64,000 nucleotides of DNA. Origin: Bacteroidaceae bacterium. Its GTDB lineage: Bacteria > Bacteroidota > Bacteroidia > Bacteroidales > Bacteroidaceae. The notes beneath the pieces were generated by a model. The model worked only from the letters and a program-made list of their open reading frames with translations, was not told where the DNA came from and ran no database searches. Within the stretch, counting starts at the first letter, position 1. Every line of letters begins with the position of its first letter. The stretch lies in assembly GCA_017965425.1 (NCBI GenBank), contig JAGCPY010000033.1:52484-116483 (forward strand). The letters are read 5' to 3'. Made by a program: the position numbers and the translations under genes. This document shows positions 1,389 through 54,000 of this stretch, one piece after another.

Positions 1389-2363
1389 TCAGAATGCGCT
1401 GGGCTTGAGAAGCAAGCCAGCATGTTCATCGATGCCAAACATGAGGTTCATGTTTTGCACGGCCTGACCGCTGGCACCTTTGAGAAGGTTGTCGATGACG
1501 CTGGTGACAAGCAGTTTGTTTTCGTGCTTTTCAACGTGGACGAGTGCCTTGTTGGTATTCACGACTTGTTTGAGGTCGAGGTCGCAGTCAACGTAGTGTG
1601 TAAAGGCAGCCGTCTCATAGAACTGTCGATATAACTTCACGATGTCATCCTCTGGTAATTCGGCGTCAATGCGGATGACCTCGGTGCAAAAGATGCCACG
1701 TGCGAAGTCACCCCGGTACGGAATAAAATCTACAGCGGCGTTGAAGCCAGGTTGCAGCTGCGCCAACGACTGCCGAATCTCAGGCACGTGCTGGTGCTGA
1801 AAAGCTTTATAGATGCTCATATTTCCTGTCCGCCACGAGAAATGGGTCGTAGCGGATGGCTTGACACCTGCCCCAGTAGATCCTGTGATGGCGTTCACGC
1901 TGATGTCGTCATGCAACAACCAGTTGGCGGCCAGAGGCAAAAGACCGAGTTGGATGGCCGTGGCGAAGCAACCTGGGTTGGCAACGTGGCGTGCCGAACG
2001 GATTACCTCTCGGTTGAGTTCAGGCAGGCCATAGACATAGTCATGCTCTGGGCTTGAGAGGCGGAAATCCTGTGCTAAGTCAATGATGCGCACGTTTGCG
2101 GGTATGGCGTTTTCCGCAAGGAACTCCGCACTCTTTCCATGCCCCATGCACAGGAACAGCACATCGACGCTCTTCAGCGGCAGACGGTCGGTGAACTTCA
2201 TGTCTGTTTCGCCCAACAGTCCCTCATGTACGTCGGTCAACAGGTTCTTGGCGTTGCTGGTGCTGTGGACAAAAGCTAATTCCGCTTCGGGATGATGCAG
2301 CAGCAGGCGGATGAGTTCGCCTGCCGTGTAACCTGCACCGCCAATGATTCCAACTTTTATCAT
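1389..2363 (-). CDS. argC: N-acetyl-gamma-glutamyl-phosphate reductase
   Basis: This enzyme makes the NADPH-dependent reduction of N-acyl-glutamyl-5-phosphate to the semialdehyde in arginine synthesis. The start at 2363 gives 324 residues beginning MIKVGIIGGAGYTAGE, the Rossmann Gly motif. An upstream in-frame extension exists but has no family character. The catalytic Cys is in NPGCFAT (Cys132), and a family block GSTGAGVKPS follows. It sits in the argR-GNAT-argG-argC cluster. Some Bacteroidetes use N-succinyl rather than N-acetyl intermediates, so the natural acyl group is uncertain. Confidence 0.95.
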   Translation of the reverse strand: MIKVGIIGGAGYTAGELIRLLLHHPEAELAFVHSTSNAKNLLTDVHEGLLGETDMKFTDRLPLKSVDVLFLCMGHGKSAEFLAENAIPANVRIIDLAQDFRLSSPEHDYVYGLPELNREVIRSARHVANPGCFATAIQLGLLPLAANWLLHDDISVNAITGSTGAGVKPSATTHFSWRTGNMSIYKAFQHQHVPEIRQSLAQLQPGFNAAVDFIPYRGDFARGIFCTEVIRIDAELPEDDIVKLYRQFYETAAFTHYVDCDLDLKQVVNTNKALVHVEKHENKLLVTSVIDNLLKGASGQAVQNMNLMFGIDEHAGLLLKPSAF

Positions 2364-2367
2364 AGTG

Positions 2368-2562
2368 CTAAAATTTATAATCCTGTGGCATGATAAGCCA
2401 TAACACCAAGTACACGATACCGCCACAGAAGGCTGTGGATACGGTCATTAAGACCCAAATGAGTCGTAACAGATCTGGATTCCAACCGAAATAATCGGCG
2501 ATGCCGCCGCACACACCAGCAATCCACTTGTTGTTGCTCGAACGTAACAATCTCTTCTCCAT
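2368..2562 (-). CDS. Small PspC-domain membrane protein
   Basis: A 64-residue protein that is almost wholly a PspC domain: RSSNNKWIAGVCGGIADYFG, then a hydrophobic stretch (LIWVLMTVSTAFCGGIVYLVLWLIM) forming one or two membrane segments. PspC-type proteins are linked to envelope stress responses, but many stand-alone Bacteroidetes copies have no assigned role. It lies 15 bp after argG and 4 bp before argC, in the same operon. Its place inside an arginine cluster suggests hitch-hiking rather than a role in arginine synthesis. Confidence 0.85.
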   Translation of the reverse strand: MEKRLLRSSNNKWIAGVCGGIADYFGWNPDLLRLIWVLMTVSTAFCGGIVYLVLWLIMPQDYKF

Positions 2563-2577
2563 TGCTGTTTCGGGGGC

Positions 2578-3840
2578 TTATCTTTCTTCGTCTTTGTGAA
2601 TCCCGTAGTACACTCTGAGCGGTGTAGAGAGAACTTTGATGAAGCCCTTAGCCTCGTCGGCGGTCCACCCTGTCTGTGTTTCGCCATATTCTCCGAGTTT
2701 ACTCTTTGTCAGGTCGTTGTCGCTGTCAACACCTACGGTCTCGAAGCCAAAAGGTCGGAGCTTGAGGATGGCCGTGCCGGTGACGTTGCGCTGTGAAGAT
2801 GAAAGAAAAGCCTCAATGTCAGGCATGACAGGCTCCAAGTACTGGCTTTCATGGAGGAACATGCCATACCAGTTGGCCACTTGGTCCTTCCAGTACTGCT
2901 GCCATTTGGAAAGTGTGGATTTCTCCAGGAGTCTGTGAGCTTCGATGATGAGCTTCGGTGCGGCGGCCTCAAATCCTACGCGCCCCTTGATGCCAATGAT
3001 GGTGTCACCCACATTGGCATCGCGACCGATGGCATAGCTGGCACCAATTTCCTCGATTTTCTGAATGGCCTTCACGCGGTCGTCGAACCGCTCACCGTTG
3101 ACCCCCACAATCTCTCCCTTCTCAAACTGAATCTTCAAGAGCGTAGAAGGCTCAGTGGCAGTCACGTGCTTCAGGTAGGCTTCCTCGGGCAGTCCCTGTG
3201 TGGCATCGAGCAGTTCGCCGCCGCAGATGCTGGTGCCCCAAATGCCTACGTTGTAGCTGTACTTCAGCTTGGCGAAGTCTGCGCTGAAACCGTGGGCGTT
3301 GAGGTAGTCCACTTCCTCCTTGCGCGTCAATTTCTTGTCGCGTGTGAGGGTGATGATTTCCACTCCGGGAGCCATCACCAGGAAAGTCATGTCGAAGCGT
3401 ATCTGGTCGTTGCCGGCTCCGGTGCTGCCGTGGGCGATGGCATCGGCACCGATTTCGCGGGCATAGCGAGCGATGGCAATGGCCTGGAAGATGCGCTCGC
3501 TGGAGACGCTGATGGGGTAGCAGTTGTTGCGCAGGACGTTGCCGAAGATCATGTATTTCAGCGACTTCTCGTAGTACTCCTGCGTCACGTCGAGGGTGAC
3601 GTACTTCGTGGCGCCCAGCTTGTAGGCATTCTCCTCGTTGGTCTTCAGCTGATCGGCGCTGAAGCCGCCCGTGTTGGCGCAAGCCGCATGTACTTCGTAG
3701 CCCATTTCCTTGGCGAGGTACATCACGGTGTAAGAGGTATCAAGGCCGCCGCTAAAGGCGACGACGACTTTGCGGTTCAGCCCACCCCCAGCCCCTCCCT
3801 GGGGAGGGGTGTTCGTTACTGCTTGTTTGTTAGTTTCCAT
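2578..3840 (-). CDS. argG: Argininosuccinate synthase with repeat-derived N-terminal extension
   Basis: It joins citrulline and aspartate with ATP in arginine synthesis. The ATP-binding P-loop AFSGGLDTSY is at about residues 28-37, and family blocks such as GSTGAGNDQIRFD and SYNVGIWG follow. ArgG proteins usually begin only a few residues before the KVVVAFSGGLD strand. Here about 21 extra residues precede it ([10 protein letters not shown], then TPPQGGAGGGL). The second part is the translation of the G-rich repeat at 3781-3811. The ATG at 3840 lies inside the 3' end of the upstream DUF559 frame, so the two genes overlap by 25 bp. No other ATG exists before the P-loop; the only alternative is a CTG just before NRKVVV. 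The enzyme core appears intact. Confidence 0.95.
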   Translation of the reverse strand: METNKQAVTNTPPQGGAGGGLNRKVVVAFSGGLDTSYTVMYLAKEMGYEVHAACANTGGFSADQLKTNEENAYKLGATKYVTLDVTQEYYEKSLKYMIFGNVLRNNCYPISVSSERIFQAIAIARYAREIGADAIAHGSTGAGNDQIRFDMTFLVMAPGVEIITLTRDKKLTRKEEVDYLNAHGFSADFAKLKYSYNVGIWGTSICGGELLDATQGLPEEAYLKHVTATEPSTLLKIQFEKGEIVGVNGERFDDRVKAIQKIEEIGASYAIGRDANVGDTIIGIKGRVGFEAAAPKLIIEAHRLLEKSTLSKWQQYWKDQVANWYGMFLHESQYLEPVMPDIEAFLSSSQRNVTGTAILKLRPFGFETVGVDSDNDLTKSKLGEYGETQTGWTADEAKGFIKVLSTPLRVYYGIHKDEER

Positions 3841-4243
3841 ATTTCTTCTTTTATAGTTGTTATTACGTTGTCTGTGTCTGCTATGACTTGGTCGTTTGAA
3901 AAACGAAGAATAGTGAAGCCTTTAGCCTCTAAATAGGTTGTCCGTTCCTCGTCTATCACTTGTTGCTCGGGCAGACAGTGATACCCGCCGTCAACTTCGA
4001 TCAGTAGCTTGATAGTGGGCGCGGACAAGTCAGCAATGAAAGGGCCTATGATATGTTGTCTTCTGAAAGAGACGCCTAATAGTTTCCCTTTTAGGTTTTG
4101 CCAGAGTATTCGTTCTGCATCCGTAGGATTCTTCCTATTCTTTTCGGCTAACTCTTTAAGTTTTCCATAAACAGAACAATCTGCCTGCTGGTAAGTTTTC
4201 AGCCTCTCTGGTCCCCCCTCCCCGGGGAGGGGTTGGGGGTGGG
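3781..4243. mobile_element. Putative DUF559-nuclease element with 31-bp inverted G-rich ends
   Basis: Two G-rich 31-bp repeats lie in opposite orientation at 3781-3811 and 4213-4243 and match at 28 of 31 positions once one is reverse-complemented. Each has its own small hairpin (CCCCTCCC / GGGGAGGGG). Between them lies the DUF559 nuclease part of the upstream gene. The 463-bp unit sits exactly at the junction between the GNAT coding region and argG. Mobility is inferred from the terminal inverted repeats and from a second, shorter pair at 27519-27660. No target-site duplication was identified. Confidence 0.55.
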
Positions 4244-4889
4244 CTTTGTCCAACCTCCTGATCCGGTCCAGCACCTCCTGCGGAATCTTGGCGGGCAGGT
4301 GCTCCTCGGGGTCGAAGAGCATGGCGGTGCAGATGCAGAACTTGCGGTTTCTTTCGCGCAAGACGTTGATGTTCACACAGCCTTCACAACCCTTCCAGAA
4401 CGCCTCGTCGTCCGTCAGGTCATCGAAGGTCACGGGCAGGTAGCCCAGCTGCGTATTCATTTTCATGACGGCCTTGCCGCTGGTGAGCGAGAAGATTTTC
4501 GCGTGTGGCCAGCGGGTGCGGGCCAGCGAGAAAGTCATGTCCTTGATTTTCTTGGCAATGCCCAATCCGCGGTACTTGGGATTCACGATGAGACCCGAGG
4601 TCGTCACATACTGCTTGTTGCCCCACGTCTCGATGTAGCTGAAGCCTGCGAACTCGTCGCCGCAGAGAGCGATGACAGCCTTTGCTTCGCGCATCTTGGT
4701 GGCCACGTATTCATGTGTTCGTTTGGCGATGCCAGTGCCACGCACTTTTGCAGCATCTTCAATCGTCTTCAGGATGGTATCGACATAGCGCTCGTGGCTT
4801 TCGTCTGCCACCAGTATTTGTATGTTGTCAACCTTGACATTTGTTTCTTCCATTGTTCTGTCTTGTGTTCGTTGGTTTTTATTGAACAT
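3816..4889 (-). CDS. GNAT acetyltransferase fused to a DUF559 (Vsr/PD-(D/E)XK-like) nuclease domain
   Basis: A 357-residue fusion. Residues 20-200 are a GNAT acyltransferase with the acetyl-CoA loop [12 protein letters not shown] (about 104-115) and a Cys-rich tail (GCEGC, then FCIC). This type of GNAT commonly sits between argR and argG in Bacteroidetes and may supply the N-acyl-glutamate step (inference). Residues 216-228 ([13 protein letters not shown]) are the translated G-rich repeat. Residues 238-350 are a DUF559 nuclease with [14 protein letters not shown], the FRRQHIIG block, Asp287 in FIADLS and the E-x-D motif in IEVDGGYH (Glu298, Asp300). The active-site residues look intact. The first ATG overlaps the argR stop; an internal ATG at 4853 (MEETNVKV) is an alternative. 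The fusion probably arose by insertion of the element. Confidence 0.85.
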
Positions 4890-5364
4890 TTGTTTCGGGA
4901 ACCACTTCTGCCAGATGATTGAGCAAGGCTGGTCGGCTTGCCTCTTCCGTCATGACGATGAGTACGGTATCGTCTCCGGCAATGGTCCCCACCACTTCGG
5001 GAATCTTTGCCTTGTCAATATCGTAGGCAACATGTGCCGCATGTCCGGGAGGCGTGTGCAGGACGGCCAGGTTCTGGCTGAATTTCACGGACAAAGCCCC
5101 CAGGCGGTTCATGCGTTGGACGGTTATATGTGTGTCGCTCACGCGTTGGTATCGTCGTCGTTCGGGCAGCATATAGACACTCTCGCCCGCATCGTTCGGA
5201 GCCTTTGCGATTTTCAGCTCCCGCAAGTCGCGGCTCAAGGTGGCTTGTGTCGAAGGGAAACCAGCCTTTTCCAACTCACGCAGCAATCCGTCTTGCGTGC
5301 TGATTTCCTGACTTGAAACAATCATCTTGACGACTTCCAGCCTGGTTCTTTTATTGGCTATCAT
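4879..5364 (-). CDS. argR: Arginine repressor ArgR
   Basis: A 161-residue transcriptional regulator. The ATG at 5364 ([17 protein letters not shown]) gives the usual family length; the longer upstream frame lacks homologous sequence. The N-terminal winged helix carries the recognition segment [17 protein letters not shown]. The C-terminal oligomerisation/arginine-binding domain carries [13 protein letters not shown]. ArgR binds ARG boxes when arginine is present. The gene leads the minus-strand arg cluster and its stop overlaps the GNAT start (ATG inside the last codons), so the two are translationally coupled. A partial ARG-box-like site overlaps its promoter. Confidence 0.93.
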
Positions 5365-5399
5365 ATCAGCATGTATATGTGTGTGGTTGTAATTGTCTG

Positions 5400-5421
5400 C
5401 AAAGGTATGAATAATTTTCCA
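5400..5421 (-). promoter_or_regulatory. argR promoter -7 element with adjacent ARG-box-like site
   Basis: On the minus strand, TACCTTTG (5400-5407) matches the Bacteroidetes -7 consensus TAnnTTTG and lies 36 bp before the argR start. Directly upstream, TGAATAATTTTCCA (plus strand 5408-5421) matches the ARG half-palindrome TGAATWWWWATTCA at 12 of 14 positions, between the -7 and -33 regions. Autorepression by ArgR is inferred. No clear second box at the usual spacing was seen. Confidence 0.4.
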
Positions 5422-5573
5422 AATGCGATGCAAGTTAAGCCGGTTTTTTTGAAAAAAGTGTAGATATTGCATAAAATACCCCGTTTTTGTTGAATATACT
5501 TGAACTATAGATGCGCTTCTCGGAAGGGGTATGTGAACGTGGAAAATATGGAGCACGTTCGTAAGCGGTGGAA

Positions 5574-5607
5574 GGTGTACACGTTCCGGGAAGAAGGTGT
5601 GCACGTT
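5574..5607. repeat. Pair of GTGTACAC-type motifs preceding long hairpin A
   Basis: GGTGTACACGTTCC (5574-5587) is followed by AAGGTGTGCACGTTC (5593-5607). Related pairs precede the other two long hairpins, at 24507-24543 and 55684-55721. The motif contains the palindrome GTGTACAC. It may be a protein-binding site or part of a composite repeat. Confidence 0.6.
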
Positions 5608-5679
5608 CATGGAGGAAGATGCATATTTTTTCAATTATGCATTTTCACTCGTGCTACCCTATGTTTTTTCGCCAAAAAG

Positions 5680-6009
5680 TCTCAATCCCTCACCTTTCGG
5701 GATATCGCATTGTCTATGAGCGGTTTGCAGGTGAGGGATTGGTGAGGGATTGGTGAGGGGAGGTGAGGGATTGCTCTTTCAATCGTGGTCGGTGAGGGAA
5801 ATGGAAAAACGTGAGGCTTAGTGAATGGCTTAATGACAATTGAAAATCAGATGTTTGTGATGTTGATGATATAGCCCTTCATAAGGACCAAGTCTGATTT
5901 GGCTGCCATCCATAACCAATCCCTCACCTTCCCTCACCAATCCCTCACCAATCCCTCACCTGCAAACCGCTCATAGACAATGCGATGTCCCGAAAGGTGA
6001 GGGATTGAG
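5680..6009. repeat. Long hairpin element A (94-bp near-perfect inverted repeat)
   Basis: The left arm at 5680-5773 and right arm at 5916-6009 are reverse complements at 92 of 94 positions, separated by about 140 bp. Both contain tandem GGTGAGGGATTGG blocks and an outer TCAATCCCTCACC. The two mismatches would be G-U pairs in RNA read from the plus strand. The rest of the gene-free stretch 5365-6299 holds the GTGTACAC pair, a GC-alternating run near 6034-6050 and a promoter near 6202. No coding region is visible in it. Confidence 0.85.
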
Positions 6010-6201
6010 AATTTTTTAACAGAACAAGAGTGTGCGCGCGTGCGCGCGTTGAATTTTATTGTGATGAGTTCAGGGAGAATAGACTGTCGGAACAATTTTT
6101 TTTGTCTTTCCAGGTAGCTTGTCAAAGGGTGAAAAGAGTAGAACATGTATGGTTTAATAAATATTAACGTTTAAAAATACAATAAGGCATGAATAAATCT
6201 T

Positions 6202-6209
6202 TACCTTTG
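6202..6209 (+). promoter_or_regulatory. Promoter -7 element for the phospho-signalling operon
   Basis: TACCTTTG fits the Bacteroidetes -7 consensus TAnnTTTG and lies about 90 bp before the zinc-ribbon gene. The -33 region is AT-rich with no clear TTTG. The next obvious promoter on this strand is far downstream, so this may drive the whole kinase/FHA/PP2C set. Confidence 0.45.
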
Positions 6210-6299
6210 CACCCAAATAGAGCCAATTATCTGTACATCCCCATTTAATGGGGAGCGTGGGTTGGTTTCATGTGATAAAAGAAAAGATTTTGACGAAAC

Positions 6300-7046
6300 A
6301 TGAGATGTCAATATTGTGGCTGGGATAACCAGCCGGATGCCACGGCCTGTACGAAGTGTGGCCAACCGCTTCCTGTCGGCAGCGCAGCACCTGCTGCACC
6401 AGTAGCAGAGCCGCAAGTGGCGGCATCCTCCGCAGACAGGGCAACAGTGGTTTTCAGACGTGGTGAGATGCCTTCGTCCCAACAGAAGCAGGCGGTAGCA
6501 GCTCCGCGACAGTCTGCCTGTCCCGTTTGCGGCTATCCCGCCACAGGCGGCGACACGAATTGCCCCATGTGTGGCGCTTCCCTTGTGCAGGCGGCCCCTC
6601 CCGCTCCAGCTGTGGCCAAGCCTATTGTCCAACAGCCCTCGCTGAATGAAACTGTCGTTCAGTCTCCTCATGTCGAACAGCCGACAGTGCGTTTCAATCC
6701 CAACGCCATGCCATCCATGTCCGTTCCTGAACCGCAGCCTTCACAGCAGCAGCCTTATATGGAACAGCCGACAGTGCGCTTCAATCCAGATGCTGTTCCT
6801 GTTATGCCAGTTCCTGGCGTACAGCCTTCTCGACCCCAACCTGTGGCGAAGGGCGTTTTTTCGCCTCTTCCAGCCGAGTTCCAGTCTCAGCCGCCCGTGG
6901 TGGCATGCGAGGATGGACGCTGGTTCGTGGAAGCACAGAACAACGCAGCCGTACTGCTGCAGGTGACTCGCCGGATAGAAATCCAACCAGGTGACATCTT
7001 GCTGGTCGATGGTCGTCGCTTCCAGTTTGAAGTGACAGAGGCGTAG
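6300..7046 (+). CDS. Double zinc-ribbon protein with repeated PTVRFNP motifs (phospho-signalling adaptor candidate)
   Basis: A 248-residue soluble protein. Two zinc ribbons are clear: C3xxC6...C17xxC20 and C74xxC77...C88xxC91. Between and after them is a Pro/Gln-rich linker with three Thr motifs of the form T-V-x-F: ATVVF (Thr49), PTVRF (Thr129) and PTVRF (Thr158). The last two lie in an imperfect repeat of about 29 residues (QPTVRFNP...AMP/AVP). The C-terminal 45 residues are compact (GRWFVEAQNNAAVLLQ...GDILLVDGRRFQFEV) and resemble one half of an FHA-like or small beta domain. It is the first gene of a kinase/FHA/phosphatase operon. The Thr motifs resemble the FHA-recognised phosphosite of GarA (T-x-V-F). 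A role as kinase substrate or scaffold is inferred. Confidence 0.75.
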   Translation: MRCQYCGWDNQPDATACTKCGQPLPVGSAAPAAPVAEPQVAASSADRATVVFRRGEMPSSQQKQAVAAPRQSACPVCGYPATGGDTNCPMCGASLVQAAPPAPAVAKPIVQQPSLNETVVQSPHVEQPTVRFNPNAMPSMSVPEPQPSQQQPYMEQPTVRFNPDAVPVMPVPGVQPSRPQPVAKGVFSPLPAEFQSQPPVVACEDGRWFVEAQNNAAVLLQVTRRIEIQPGDILLVDGRRFQFEVTEA

Positions 7047-51059: not shown

Positions 51060-54000
51060 ATGATGAAAAGAGTATTTTTATTCATGTTGCTGGCGATGTT
51101 GTCCCTTTCTAACTTCGCCCAGCGTAGGACCGACCGTCTCGACCGTGGCCTCGTGGCCACCGTGGCCATGAGCGGTTCGGGCAACTTCATTTCGTGGCGC
51201 ATACTGCCCGAAGAGTATTTCGACGTCACCTACAATCTCTATTGCAATGGCAAGCTGTTGAAGGGTGACCTCAGTGTGAGCAGCTATGTTCACGCCGCTG
51301 GCAGTGCCACCAGTCAGTATCAGGTGGCACCTGTCGTGCGTGGTGTCGAAGGCGAGAAGTGTGCTGTCGTCAAGAGGTGGACGGGTATCTCCAACCTCAC
51401 CAATGGCGTCGGCGACAATCCTCACACTGGTTATCTCGACATCAATTGTCAGCCAGCTGTGGATCGTGCAGGGCAAACATGTACTGCCCAGTATGAGTTC
51501 AACGACTGCGTGGCTGCCGACGTGGATGGCGACGGACAGGTGGAACTCATCTGCAAACGCAACTACACGGGCGGTGTCAACGATGCCGCCAACAAGACAC
51601 GTTTCCATCGTATTGAGATTATGAAGCTTGACGGTACACGCCTCTGGTGGATAGACCTCGGACCTAACATGATGGCAGGACCCGATGAGCAATGGGATGC
51701 CGTGGCCTTCGACTGGGACATGGACGGCAAGGCAGAGGTGCTCCTGCGGGGTGCCGACAACATGATTATCCACACCGCCACAGGTGCCGACATCAAGGTA
51801 GGCAATATGAATTATTATGCTCCGCGTGACCAATATACGTGTGTGGGCAACGAATATCTGCTCTACTTGAATGGCGAAAGCGGCGTTCCTTACGCTTCAT
51901 GGAACGAATCTTTAAACACGTTCACTCCGCCTGCATACCCCCTGAAACGTTATGAAAACGGCGAACAGCAAAGTCTCGCCGTTTGGGGTAAGGACGGCGA
52001 CGGTGGACACCGTTCCACCAAGCACTATTTTGGTGCACCCTATCTCGACGGTCAGCATCCGAGCATCTTCCTCGGACGTGGCTGTTACACGCGTCACAAG
52101 TTCGTAGCCCTCGATGTCAACCCTTCCACTCACGAGTTGACACAGCGTTGGTATTGGAGCAATAACCAAGGCTGGGGCAGTCCTTGGTTTGGCAATGGCT
52201 ACCACAACTTCGGCATCCAAGATGTCGATATGGACGGTCGCGATGAAATCGTCTTTGGTTCCATGATCATCGACGACAATGGCAAGGGGCTCTCCACGTC
52301 GGGGCTTGGACACGGTGATGCTCAACACTGCTCTGACCTCGACCCATACCGTTGGGGATTGGAGTTCTTTGCCTGCAACGAAGACGAACCTGCCATGAAC
52401 TACCGCAACGCCACCACCTCGCAGATGTACTATCGTATGCAGAGCACAGGCGACGACGGTCGTGCTCTGGCCGGAAACTTCACCAACAGATACCCTGGTT
52501 GCGTGGGACAGTCTTCACAGACAGGTGTGCTCAGCCTCACTGCCGATAAAGTCATCACGGGACAGGGCGGCTATGCACTCAATTTCCGCATCTACTGGGA
52601 TGGCGACCTTTGTTCCGAAATCCTTGACAGCCCTGGAACGGCCAAGGCTGCCAAGATCGAGAAACTCGATGGTGGGCGTATCTTCAACTCAGAAGGCCAT
52701 TTGAACAACGACTCCAAGAACAATGCCTGTCTCACTGGCGACATCTTGGGCGACTGGCGAGAGGAACTGCTGGTGGCCAACGGAACGGGTATGCGTCTCT
52801 ACACCACCAGCCGTCCCACCACCTTCCGCATTCCTTCCCTCTGGTACGACCACGGCTATCGGAACGGTATGGTATGGGAAACAATCGGTTACAACCAGCC
52901 TCCGCATACCAGCTATTTTCTCGGTGAACTGGAAGGCATCACCGTTGCACCGCCTTGTCTCACTACCGCAGGACGCGAACTCATACCCGCAGGCGGTTCC
53001 ATTGGTGCCGACATGAACGGCAAGCAGGTTCTCGTCTTCCAGAATGCCGACAACGACGTGACCATCGCCGACGGAGCTCAACCTTGGGTGGCCATCTTCA
53101 ACGTTCCTGGATGGGTGAGTGGCAACAACCCTTCAGAGACAAGTTCCAACGTGGCCCCGACCTTCACCTACTACACTTGCACTGTCAAGGGCGGAGGTCT
53201 GTCCGGAACGGCACGCCTTGTCAAACAGGGCGAGGGCGAACTCATCTTGCCGTCCGTGGCCATGACACACACGGGCAACACCGATGTCTGGAACGGCACG
53301 CTGACCTTCGACGGCTCGATGCAGCAATCATCGCTTTGGCTCAACCGCCACACGGCTCTCAACAGCAATGGAGGCACCTTCCGTCGCATCCGTGCCGACT
53401 ACAATGCCACCATACGTCCTGGCGGTGCCAATCGTCGAGGCAACATCACGACGGACTCTCTCATGCTCGGATTCGGCTCTCGTTTGCAACTGGATATCTA
53501 TGCCGACGGCTTACAGGCCGACTGCATCAAGACTACATTGCTGAACATTGAGACCAAGCTGACGGGGACGTGGGCCACCTATGGACCCAAGTACTTGCAG
53601 CCGGTATTCGAGATCGTCAACCACGGCAACGACATCGCCGAGGGCGAATACCTTATCCTCGACGGCGTGGAGACGTTGAAGGGCAAACTCGCTGACATTG
53701 TCATCGAGGGCTTGGGAACCAGCAAGAAGAGCACGCTGCGTCAGGACGGAGACAAGGTCTATCTCGTCATCAGCGGTATGCGCAGTGCCAGCGATGTCGT
53801 ATGGACGGGGGCCGAGAGTGCCGACTGGCAGTTTGGCGGCGATGACAACTTTGTCCTCACGGCACAGCCGGAAGGTGAGGCACAGTGCTTTGTCAGTGGC
53901 GACATCGTCCGTTTCGACAACAGTTCCACGAAGCTCTCCGTGAATGTCAAGGGCAACATCGAGGCAGACAGCATCATCGTCGATGCCACCAAAAACTATA

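Follow-up and report, generated by a model that had tools for sequence, protein, structure and literature searches.

Dispersed palindromes are common in bacteria, and for most of those outside RAYT systems we know of no established means of spread. As far as the cited sections of its description go, the REP/REPIN-RAYT (TnpA-REP) system combines one small nuclease gene flanked by palindromes, scattered short inverted pairs, enzyme subclasses with their own repeat types and reported in-frame insertion into genes, and in-frame palindromes are described for the RAYTs that are common in Bacteroidetes and Cyanobacteria (PMC6006769). The DUF559 element described here, found in a window of 64,000 nucleotides from a Bacteroidaceae bacterium (positions 52,484 to 116,483 of contig JAGCPY010000033.1, assembly GCA_017965425.1; the window denotes this whole stretch), is alike in all of these respects. 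Unlike the REP/REPIN-RAYT system, its enzyme belongs to the PD-(D/E)XK group and not to the HUH Y1 group, its two window repeats (these two only) lack the GT[AG]G foot and carry CCAG or CCAA directly before the palindrome, the Y1 loci of the same genus have other repeats, and the element lends a start codon to the next gene. Membership of the RAYT/REPIN group was considered and rejected, because the gene between the repeats is PF04480 and not HUH Y1.

The Rickettsia palindromic elements, in the sections cited, are inserts of about 150 bp lying in frame inside unrelated genes, with no mobility enzyme named there (PMC10969869). Palindromic inserts are similarly kept in frame in protein genes here (13 of 23 short elements; fmt, which has uninvaded homologues), but the DUF559 element has in addition a nuclease-encoding long form; this comparison is by description and not by sequence. 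Vsr-like homing endonucleases of mobile introns are related through a profile match to PDB entry 3r3p (E 1.4e-7) and through the reuse of sites across relatives, whereas the DUF559 element is bounded by palindromic terminal repeats and no intron was found; unlike mobile introns, it would be left in mRNA and protein, as far as the frames tell. Inteins, too, are nuclease-bearing inserts kept in frame within housekeeping proteins (here LeuRS and RecG, for example), but no splicing domain appeared among the Pfam matches of 19 fused frames of the DUF559 element, which also has repeats at its edges. MITEs and insertion sequences share the terminal inverted repeats and the full and internally deleted forms; unlike them, the DUF559 element has no known transposase, and no target-site duplication was seen. 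The best overall reading is a new class of mobile element, similar to REPIN/RAYT in layout but with an unrelated nuclease. No description of a DUF559-repeat association was found in the open-access literature (subscription papers and bioRxiv being outside this scope), and no title or abstract opening among the open-access papers mentioning DUF559 concerned such repeats.

Layout of the element at the GNAT-argG joint

The initial annotation described inverted 31-bp repeats at 3781-4243 that enclose only a DUF559 nuclease. The measured arm edges agree with these bounds within 2 bp, and the features of the locus are as follows.

3779..4245, minus strand: whole element from repeat edge to repeat edge, 467 bp, absent at most orthologous joints examined
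4215..4245, minus strand: terminal inverted repeat on the GNAT side, translated in frame within the GNAT-DUF559 fusion
3779..3809, minus strand: terminal inverted repeat on the argG side, translated in frame as TPPQGGAGGGL within the ArgG N-terminus
3840..4160, minus strand: DUF559 (PF04480) Vsr-like PD-(D/E)XK nuclease domain, E 2.5e-28, with conserved E, D, ExD and H
3816..4853, minus strand: GNAT-DUF559 fusion gene, GNAT ATG at 4851-4853 and DUF559 stop at 3816-3818
3838..3840, minus strand: argG start codon supplied by the element, the argG and DUF559 frames overlapping by 25 bases
2578..3840, minus strand: argG (argininosuccinate synthase) with an element-derived N-terminus

The DUF559, GNAT and argG genes all lie on the minus strand of the window. 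The two arms, 31 nt each, are 94% complementary and 405 nt apart, with an inverted-repeat score of 25 (scored as for the named loci below, with slightly wider flanks), and each consists of the near-palindrome CCCCTCCCNGGGGAGGGG followed outward by the G-rich tail GGGGGTGGGCT. DUF559 is the sole domain between them (Pfam PF04480, E 2.5e-28; 98.5 bits against a cut-off of 20.6) and occupies residues 244-350 of the minus-strand frame 3816-4889. The GNAT frame continues through the translated first arm into DUF559 with no stop between and ends at 3816, which bears out the in-frame fusion originally proposed. The argG frame opens at the ATG 3838-3840 inside the end of DUF559 and then passes through the second arm into ArgG; the argG-side repeat is therefore also translated, as the ArgG N-terminus, a point absent from the initial annotation. 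Since frames cross both arms, one repeat belongs to the GNAT-nuclease fusion and the other to ArgG. At the empty sites of relatives, argG starts near KVVVAFSGG.

Shuffled sequences of equal composition folded as well as the two window 31-mers did as single strands (z of the 31-mers -0.18 and -0.34), a result that counts against a hairpin-specific claim. A defence system search returned weak PADLOC matches only. A second and unrelated inverted repeat lies upstream of argR at window 5674-6016; its arms, of 100 nt, are 97% complementary, 143 nt apart and built on GGTGAGGGATTGGTGAGGG, and it is possibly another palindromic mobile element.

The DUF559 nuclease

Residues E16, D44, E55, D57 and H61 of DUF559 are invariant in 24 aligned relatives, and the corresponding columns are invariant in 77 of 77 bracketed copies, so the catalytic D...ExD residues (D44, E55, D57) are kept, as had been noted from the window alone. 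Ten pairs were compared for selection. Six were saturated, and three unsaturated pairs gave dN/dS values of 0.138, 0.089 and 0.138, which indicate that the DUF559 gene is under purifying selection; the pair L039/L040 has 3 nonsynonymous and 0 synonymous changes, and this counts against the explanation preferred here. In a sequence search of solved structures the DUF559 profile matched PDB entries 3hrl ('Endonuclease-Like Protein', 3e-31) and 3r3p ('Mobile intron protein', E 1.4e-7), the latter of which we take to be I-Bth0305I, a Vsr-like homing enzyme. The Vsr model gave a weak match in one of three paralogues scanned (E 0.0011). The nearest DUF559 relatives share repeats. Across all 77 elements the correlation of enzyme divergence with repeat divergence is weak (Mantel r 0.086, with 28 of 1000 permutations as high), which also counts against the preferred explanation.

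Repeats often bracket DUF559 genes in several phyla

In the bracket test the 350 bases on either side of each gene were aligned against each other with no motif assumed. The named set consisted of the 80 best-ranking named loci from a single scan, almost all of them Bacteroidota as judged by title, of which 79 had enough flank (L107, too near a contig end, was left out here but kept in the 105-locus set), and 395 random segments from the same 79 loci with equal flank windows served as controls. A score of at least 16 was reached in 51 of the 79 DUF559 loci versus none of the 395 controls, and a score of at least 14 in 55 versus 2. DUF559 is present in 100 of 139 genomes of the genus. The set from the source genome and the genus comprised 25 of 33 loci (four own, and L036-L064); seven loci cut off by a contig end were omitted, as was the broken C17 copy, although L004, L041 and L043 among these eight showed clear repeats. 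Under a looser flank limit, a score of at least 14 was obtained in 77 of 105 loci (56/80 named, 21/25 from the source genome and genus). The named set was picked by similarity to A1 and its members are mostly bracketed; therefore the rate across all DUF559 proteins may be lower. Within the 77 elements the median arm similarity is 0.86, versus 0.40 between elements, and the partner arm of the same element is the best match in 53. The expectation that DUF559 genes elsewhere are also bracketed was thus upheld, the brackets being inverted G/C-rich palindromes. The repeat varies in sequence between elements, each of which has its own matched pair.

The test was extended to plasmid loci outside Bacteroidota, using 20 of 40 listed loci (47 found) picked for spread over genera before their flanks were seen. 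A score of at least 16 was reached in 12 of these versus 0 of 100 controls, two of which attained 14. The bracketed loci come from Pseudanabaena (two), Picosynechococcus (one), Deinococcus (four), Azospirillum lipoferum, Sphingomonas (two), Novosphingobium (one) and Sphingobium (one); the unbracketed ones come from a second Picosynechococcus, two Synechocystis, Sinorhizobium, E. coli, Parageobacillus, Azospirillum brasilense and Photobacterium. A clear repeat pair was absent in 28 of the 79 named and 8 of the 20 plasmid DUF559 loci, which counts against the preferred explanation. On viral contigs (IMG/VR), 4 of the 13 best-ranked loci tested, out of 32 found, scored at least 16.

The bracketed viral copies are L175, L178, L180 and L182. 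In one Pseudanabaena plasmid (L271) the DUF559 gene lies between copies of TGCCCCCTAAATCCCCCAATTCTGGGGGACTT, presumably a repeat common in cyanobacteria. A hydroxyphenylacetate (hpa) gene cluster is common to three Deinococcus plasmids (L305, L306, L307) and contains a DUF559 gene at a different position in each.

Unit edges, empty sites and filled sites

The C89 element of the source genome aligns at 70-77% identity with units in five other genomes, and the alignments start at base 1387-1399 and end at 1890-1891, which are the arm edges. Three of the five relatives (G007, G031, G128) occupy one common site, so that the unit is found at four sites in all, three besides that of C89; the flanks of the four sites have no match to each other. 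Many close element pairs lie at the same orthologous site, a sign of old vertical inheritance that counts against the preferred explanation. No near-identical recent copy pairs were found and no recent movement was seen.

The GNAT-argG joint was surveyed in the 30 best matches in 129 genomes, giving 29 readable loci including the window (L068 ends before argG and was not counted). The element is present in four (source genome, G129, G030, G034) and absent from 25, which confirms the empty site anticipated in relatives; in the GNAT tail of G121, one of the 25, a C-rich stretch is possibly a remnant. Another eight loci were chosen for long frames, nearby DUF559 or other hints. G131 carries the A type, G022 the type shared by G034 and G129, G031 a short form supplying the argG ATG and G073 a possible element remnant, while in G085, G044 and G012 it is the next joint, argG-argC, that contains an element. 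The two joints of the GNAT-argG-argC row have been hit repeatedly, by several element types (L372-L377 and the window). At filled GNAT-argG sites the tail of GNAT, the spacer and the opening codons of argG are missing, which indicates that the element replaced the joint. The original wording, that the nuclease was inserted between GNAT and argG, is accordingly right in that relatives lack the element and inexact in that the joint sequence was replaced and not simply interrupted.

Of the 32 orthologous clc-fmt loci, 6 carry the full element, in two types, and 3 a short or one-ended form (short in G132 and G114); 13 have at most 74 bp between aligned flanks (two of them 5 bp), 5 a long AT-rich spacer and 5 another spacer. 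The AT-rich spacers (L234, L236, L237, L238, L256) measure 480-770 bp with runs such as ATAAAATATAAAATAT, and in three of the five a remnant of a repeat survives at the left edge, which would fit the replacement of one insertion by another. In G018 and G088 the native fmt ATG is still present after the element. At the other filled loci its position reads CTC, CTT, CTA, TTG or ATA, as would be expected after takeover by the ATG of the element. No target-site duplication is visible at clc-fmt or GNAT-argG, where the target bases look replaced. Terminal inverted repeats and empty sites, by which insertion sequences and MITEs are recognised, are both present.

Other copies and short forms in the source genome

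The source genome has four DUF559 loci by PF04480, all four bracketed by outward-pointing repeat copies; the C17 copy is split into two frames. Three repeat types occur, each DUF559 copy having a single type at both ends: A in the window, B in C89 and C17, and C in C25. A loose repeat pattern gave 70 matches versus 43 for the reversed pattern and, given those 43, single pattern matches are no proof. Many matches are paired, 40-200 bases apart in the same outward orientation, and 23 such pairs in 55 stretches, some overlapping, represent short elements without DUF559. Paired inverted palindromes are thus dispersed across the source genome, as in RAYT/REPIN systems. The inner flank of a short A element, ACAAACAAGCAGAAGGGAACACCCC, is nearly identical to that of the window element, ACAAACAAGCAGTAACGAACACCCC, so the short forms look like internally deleted relatives of the full element.

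Of the 23 short elements, 13 lie in frame, with the frame open for at least 40 codons on both sides. A short C-type element sits in frame inside fmt of the source genome, at a linker that is short and native in relatives (FFAEKDVPAEPGNP in G088) and that in G011 and G111 contains other inserts, with a translated repeat of similar kind. In another gene, two linkers hold different element types in different species. Only one of nine short pairs was in an open frame in G090 and G132 (30 stretches from these two repeat-rich genomes), and this counts against the preferred explanation. The alignments show a unit whose edges are its repeats: orthologous sites may have it or lack it, unrelated sites carry it between the same edges, and short versions without DUF559 accompany it.

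Frame keeping and insertion inside genes

A frame of at least 100 codons reads outward from the right end in 74 of 77 elements. In 56 of these 74 an ATG within the element is in the frame of the downstream gene, versus 23.0 expected for a random frame; at the mirrored left end an in-frame ATG was found in 3 of 35, versus 4.3 expected. Both flanking genes are co-directional with DUF559 in 62 of the 74 elements with enough flank. The DUF559 frame stays open for at least 50 codons past the left arm in 18 of 77 elements, past the right arm in 25 and past both in 14. Pfam was run on 19 fused frames picked by length (E<=1e-5), and these place DUF559 inside CinA, a class I tRNA synthetase resembling IleRS, three LeuRS proteins at different places (one of these hosts being Ilyomonas limi), an ABC-F-like protein, an aminotransferase, a helicase and, from Pfam on the fused frame alone, a radical-SAM methylthiotransferase-like protein. 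DUF559 is C-terminal on IspG/GcpE (twice) and phosphoglycerate mutase (twice) and N-terminal on aconitase. It also lies inside RecG of Flavobacterium difficile, where the weakness of the repeat pair (score 12) counts against the preferred explanation. In each of three genomes, no gene but the invaded LeuRS matches the LeuRS editing domain strongly, the other matches being partial and weak. The invaded gene therefore looks like the sole LeuRS of these genomes, and the cells appear to live with the inserted protein.

No splicing or intein domain appeared among the Pfam matches (E<=1e-5) of the 19 fused frames, and no Rfam family of structured RNA matched window 2000-6500. With the frame open throughout, an intron or intein was rejected as the nature of the element. 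Read from the frames, the elements settle at gene-gene joints and inside genes, often keeping frames open, and their right end gives the next gene a start codon.

Repeat load follows DUF559 rather than RAYT genes

Exact palindromes of the form CCCCTCCC-N(0-8)-GGGAGGGG number 0 to 210 per genome of the genus, versus 0-2 for the reversed pattern. The median is 7.5 in genomes with DUF559 (n=100) versus 1 in those without (n=39; p 3e-8, kinship ignored). Zero palindromes were found in 10 of the 100 genomes with DUF559 and in 17 of the 39 without (the genomes being incomplete), and eight genomes without a found DUF559 hold 7-97 (again in incomplete genomes); the former ten and the latter eight count against the preferred explanation. 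One genome that lacks a DUF559 match has 97 palindromes and, in the stretch L371 (G023:C96:3800-5987), an A-type repeat pair 453 bp apart; the DUF559 motif was not found in this stretch, which is maybe a decayed DUF559 copy.

Y1_Tnp was detected in 27 of the 139 genomes at E<=2e-10 and in 62 at E<=0.001. Palindrome load is similar with strong Y1 and in the rest (median 6 versus 5, p 0.44). An inverted pair of their own, scoring at least 16, flanks 21 of the 25 genus Y1 loci tested (L345, too near a contig end, was left out), and the CCCCTCCC/GGGAGGGG palindrome is near one of the 25. Because the same test recovers the RAYT-REP link as a separate system, the Y1 loci act as a positive control. 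The RAYT-type (Y1) loci L341-L366 of the genus, with their own inverted repeats such as AGCCCAGGGCAACGCCCTGGGTA, constitute a separate REP system. A RAYT as the mobiliser of the DUF559-type repeats is disfavoured, since the Y1 repeats differ and the load follows DUF559 and not Y1.

Discussion

The GNAT-argG unit is probably one copy of a compact mobile element consisting of two matched palindromic G-rich terminal repeats and one DUF559 nuclease gene. The initial annotation had suggested a selfish element that spreads small repeats, and the association of DUF559 with repeats and the empty sites in relatives support this suggestion; that DUF559 drives the mobility is what we infer. The DUF559 protein would recognise terminal repeats of its own type and would cut or nick DNA at the repeats or at the target, the element would be copied into the break by host repair, and the short versions would be moved in trans. 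Filled sites have lost target bases and show no visible duplication, and different types have used the same joints; this pattern points to break repair more than to a classical transposase, although insertions of this age cannot decide the matter. Frame keeping is probably in part design, through the right-end ATG, and in part selection, since only insertions sparing operon and protein function would survive.

Other explanations differ mainly in what they ask of the nuclease. Homing-type drive, in which DUF559 would cut the empty allele of one site and homologous recombination would copy the element there only, new sites being rare and accidental, appears unlikely. It would account for the GNAT-argG joint carrying type A in G000, G030 and G131 and another type in G034, G129 and G022, for the two full types at clc-fmt and, with weak support, for a GNAT tree that pairs G000 with an empty genome and places G030 elsewhere; a mobile intron protein is also among the closest solved relatives. 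Homing alone does not, however, give a C89-type unit at four unrelated sites or short versions genome-wide, and the hits of many types on the same linkers are expected if few sites tolerate insertion. We regard it as distinctly improbable that DUF559 is a passenger and that another enzyme acting in trans, for example a RAYT (Y1 HUH) transposase, moves the repeats. RAYT-type genes do occur in the genus at the frequencies given above, and the cited sections of PMC6006769 describe in-frame palindromes for the RAYTs common in these groups, but the genus Y1 loci have their own, different repeats, DUF559-type palindromes are near one of 25 such loci, and palindrome load follows DUF559 and not strong Y1; these points weigh against a RAYT in particular and less against an enzyme of another kind.

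Two further explanations are very improbable. If DUF559 were a Vsr-like mismatch-repair nuclease with no mobility role, in neighbourhoods repeat-rich by chance, then the weak Vsr-model match of one paralogue would be expected, and a Caulobacter DUF559 protein, VsrA, is proposed in the cited part of PMC12907096 to act on T:G mismatch repair; the matched repeat pairs, unit edges, empty sites and in-gene copies would nevertheless be left unexplained. Were the units instead domesticated expression devices that couple translation of neighbouring genes, the right-end ATG in the frame of the next gene (56/74) and the long persistence at some sites would follow, whereas patchy presence, type changes at one site and in-gene insertions fit an invader better.

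Beyond this locus, we lean towards a previously undescribed class of mobile element in at least four phyla (Bacteroidota, Cyanobacteriota, Deinococcota and Pseudomonadota). Such elements would carry only a Vsr-like DUF559 nuclease between self-matched palindromic ends, would be the autonomous partner of many G-rich palindromic repeats and would live by frame-preserving insertion, joining operon genes, lending start codons downstream, sitting in essential proteins such as LeuRS without splicing and leaving new linkers in the proteome.

The same layout recurs in several bacterial phyla, and DUF559 is thereby a candidate mobility enzyme for a large set of dispersed bacterial palindromes; these results suggest a role for a domain without settled function that is present in many phyla. 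With frames kept and start codons donated, insertion of this kind would offer DNA a route into densely packed operons and essential genes that leaves them intact in function, and it would be a source of new protein linkers.
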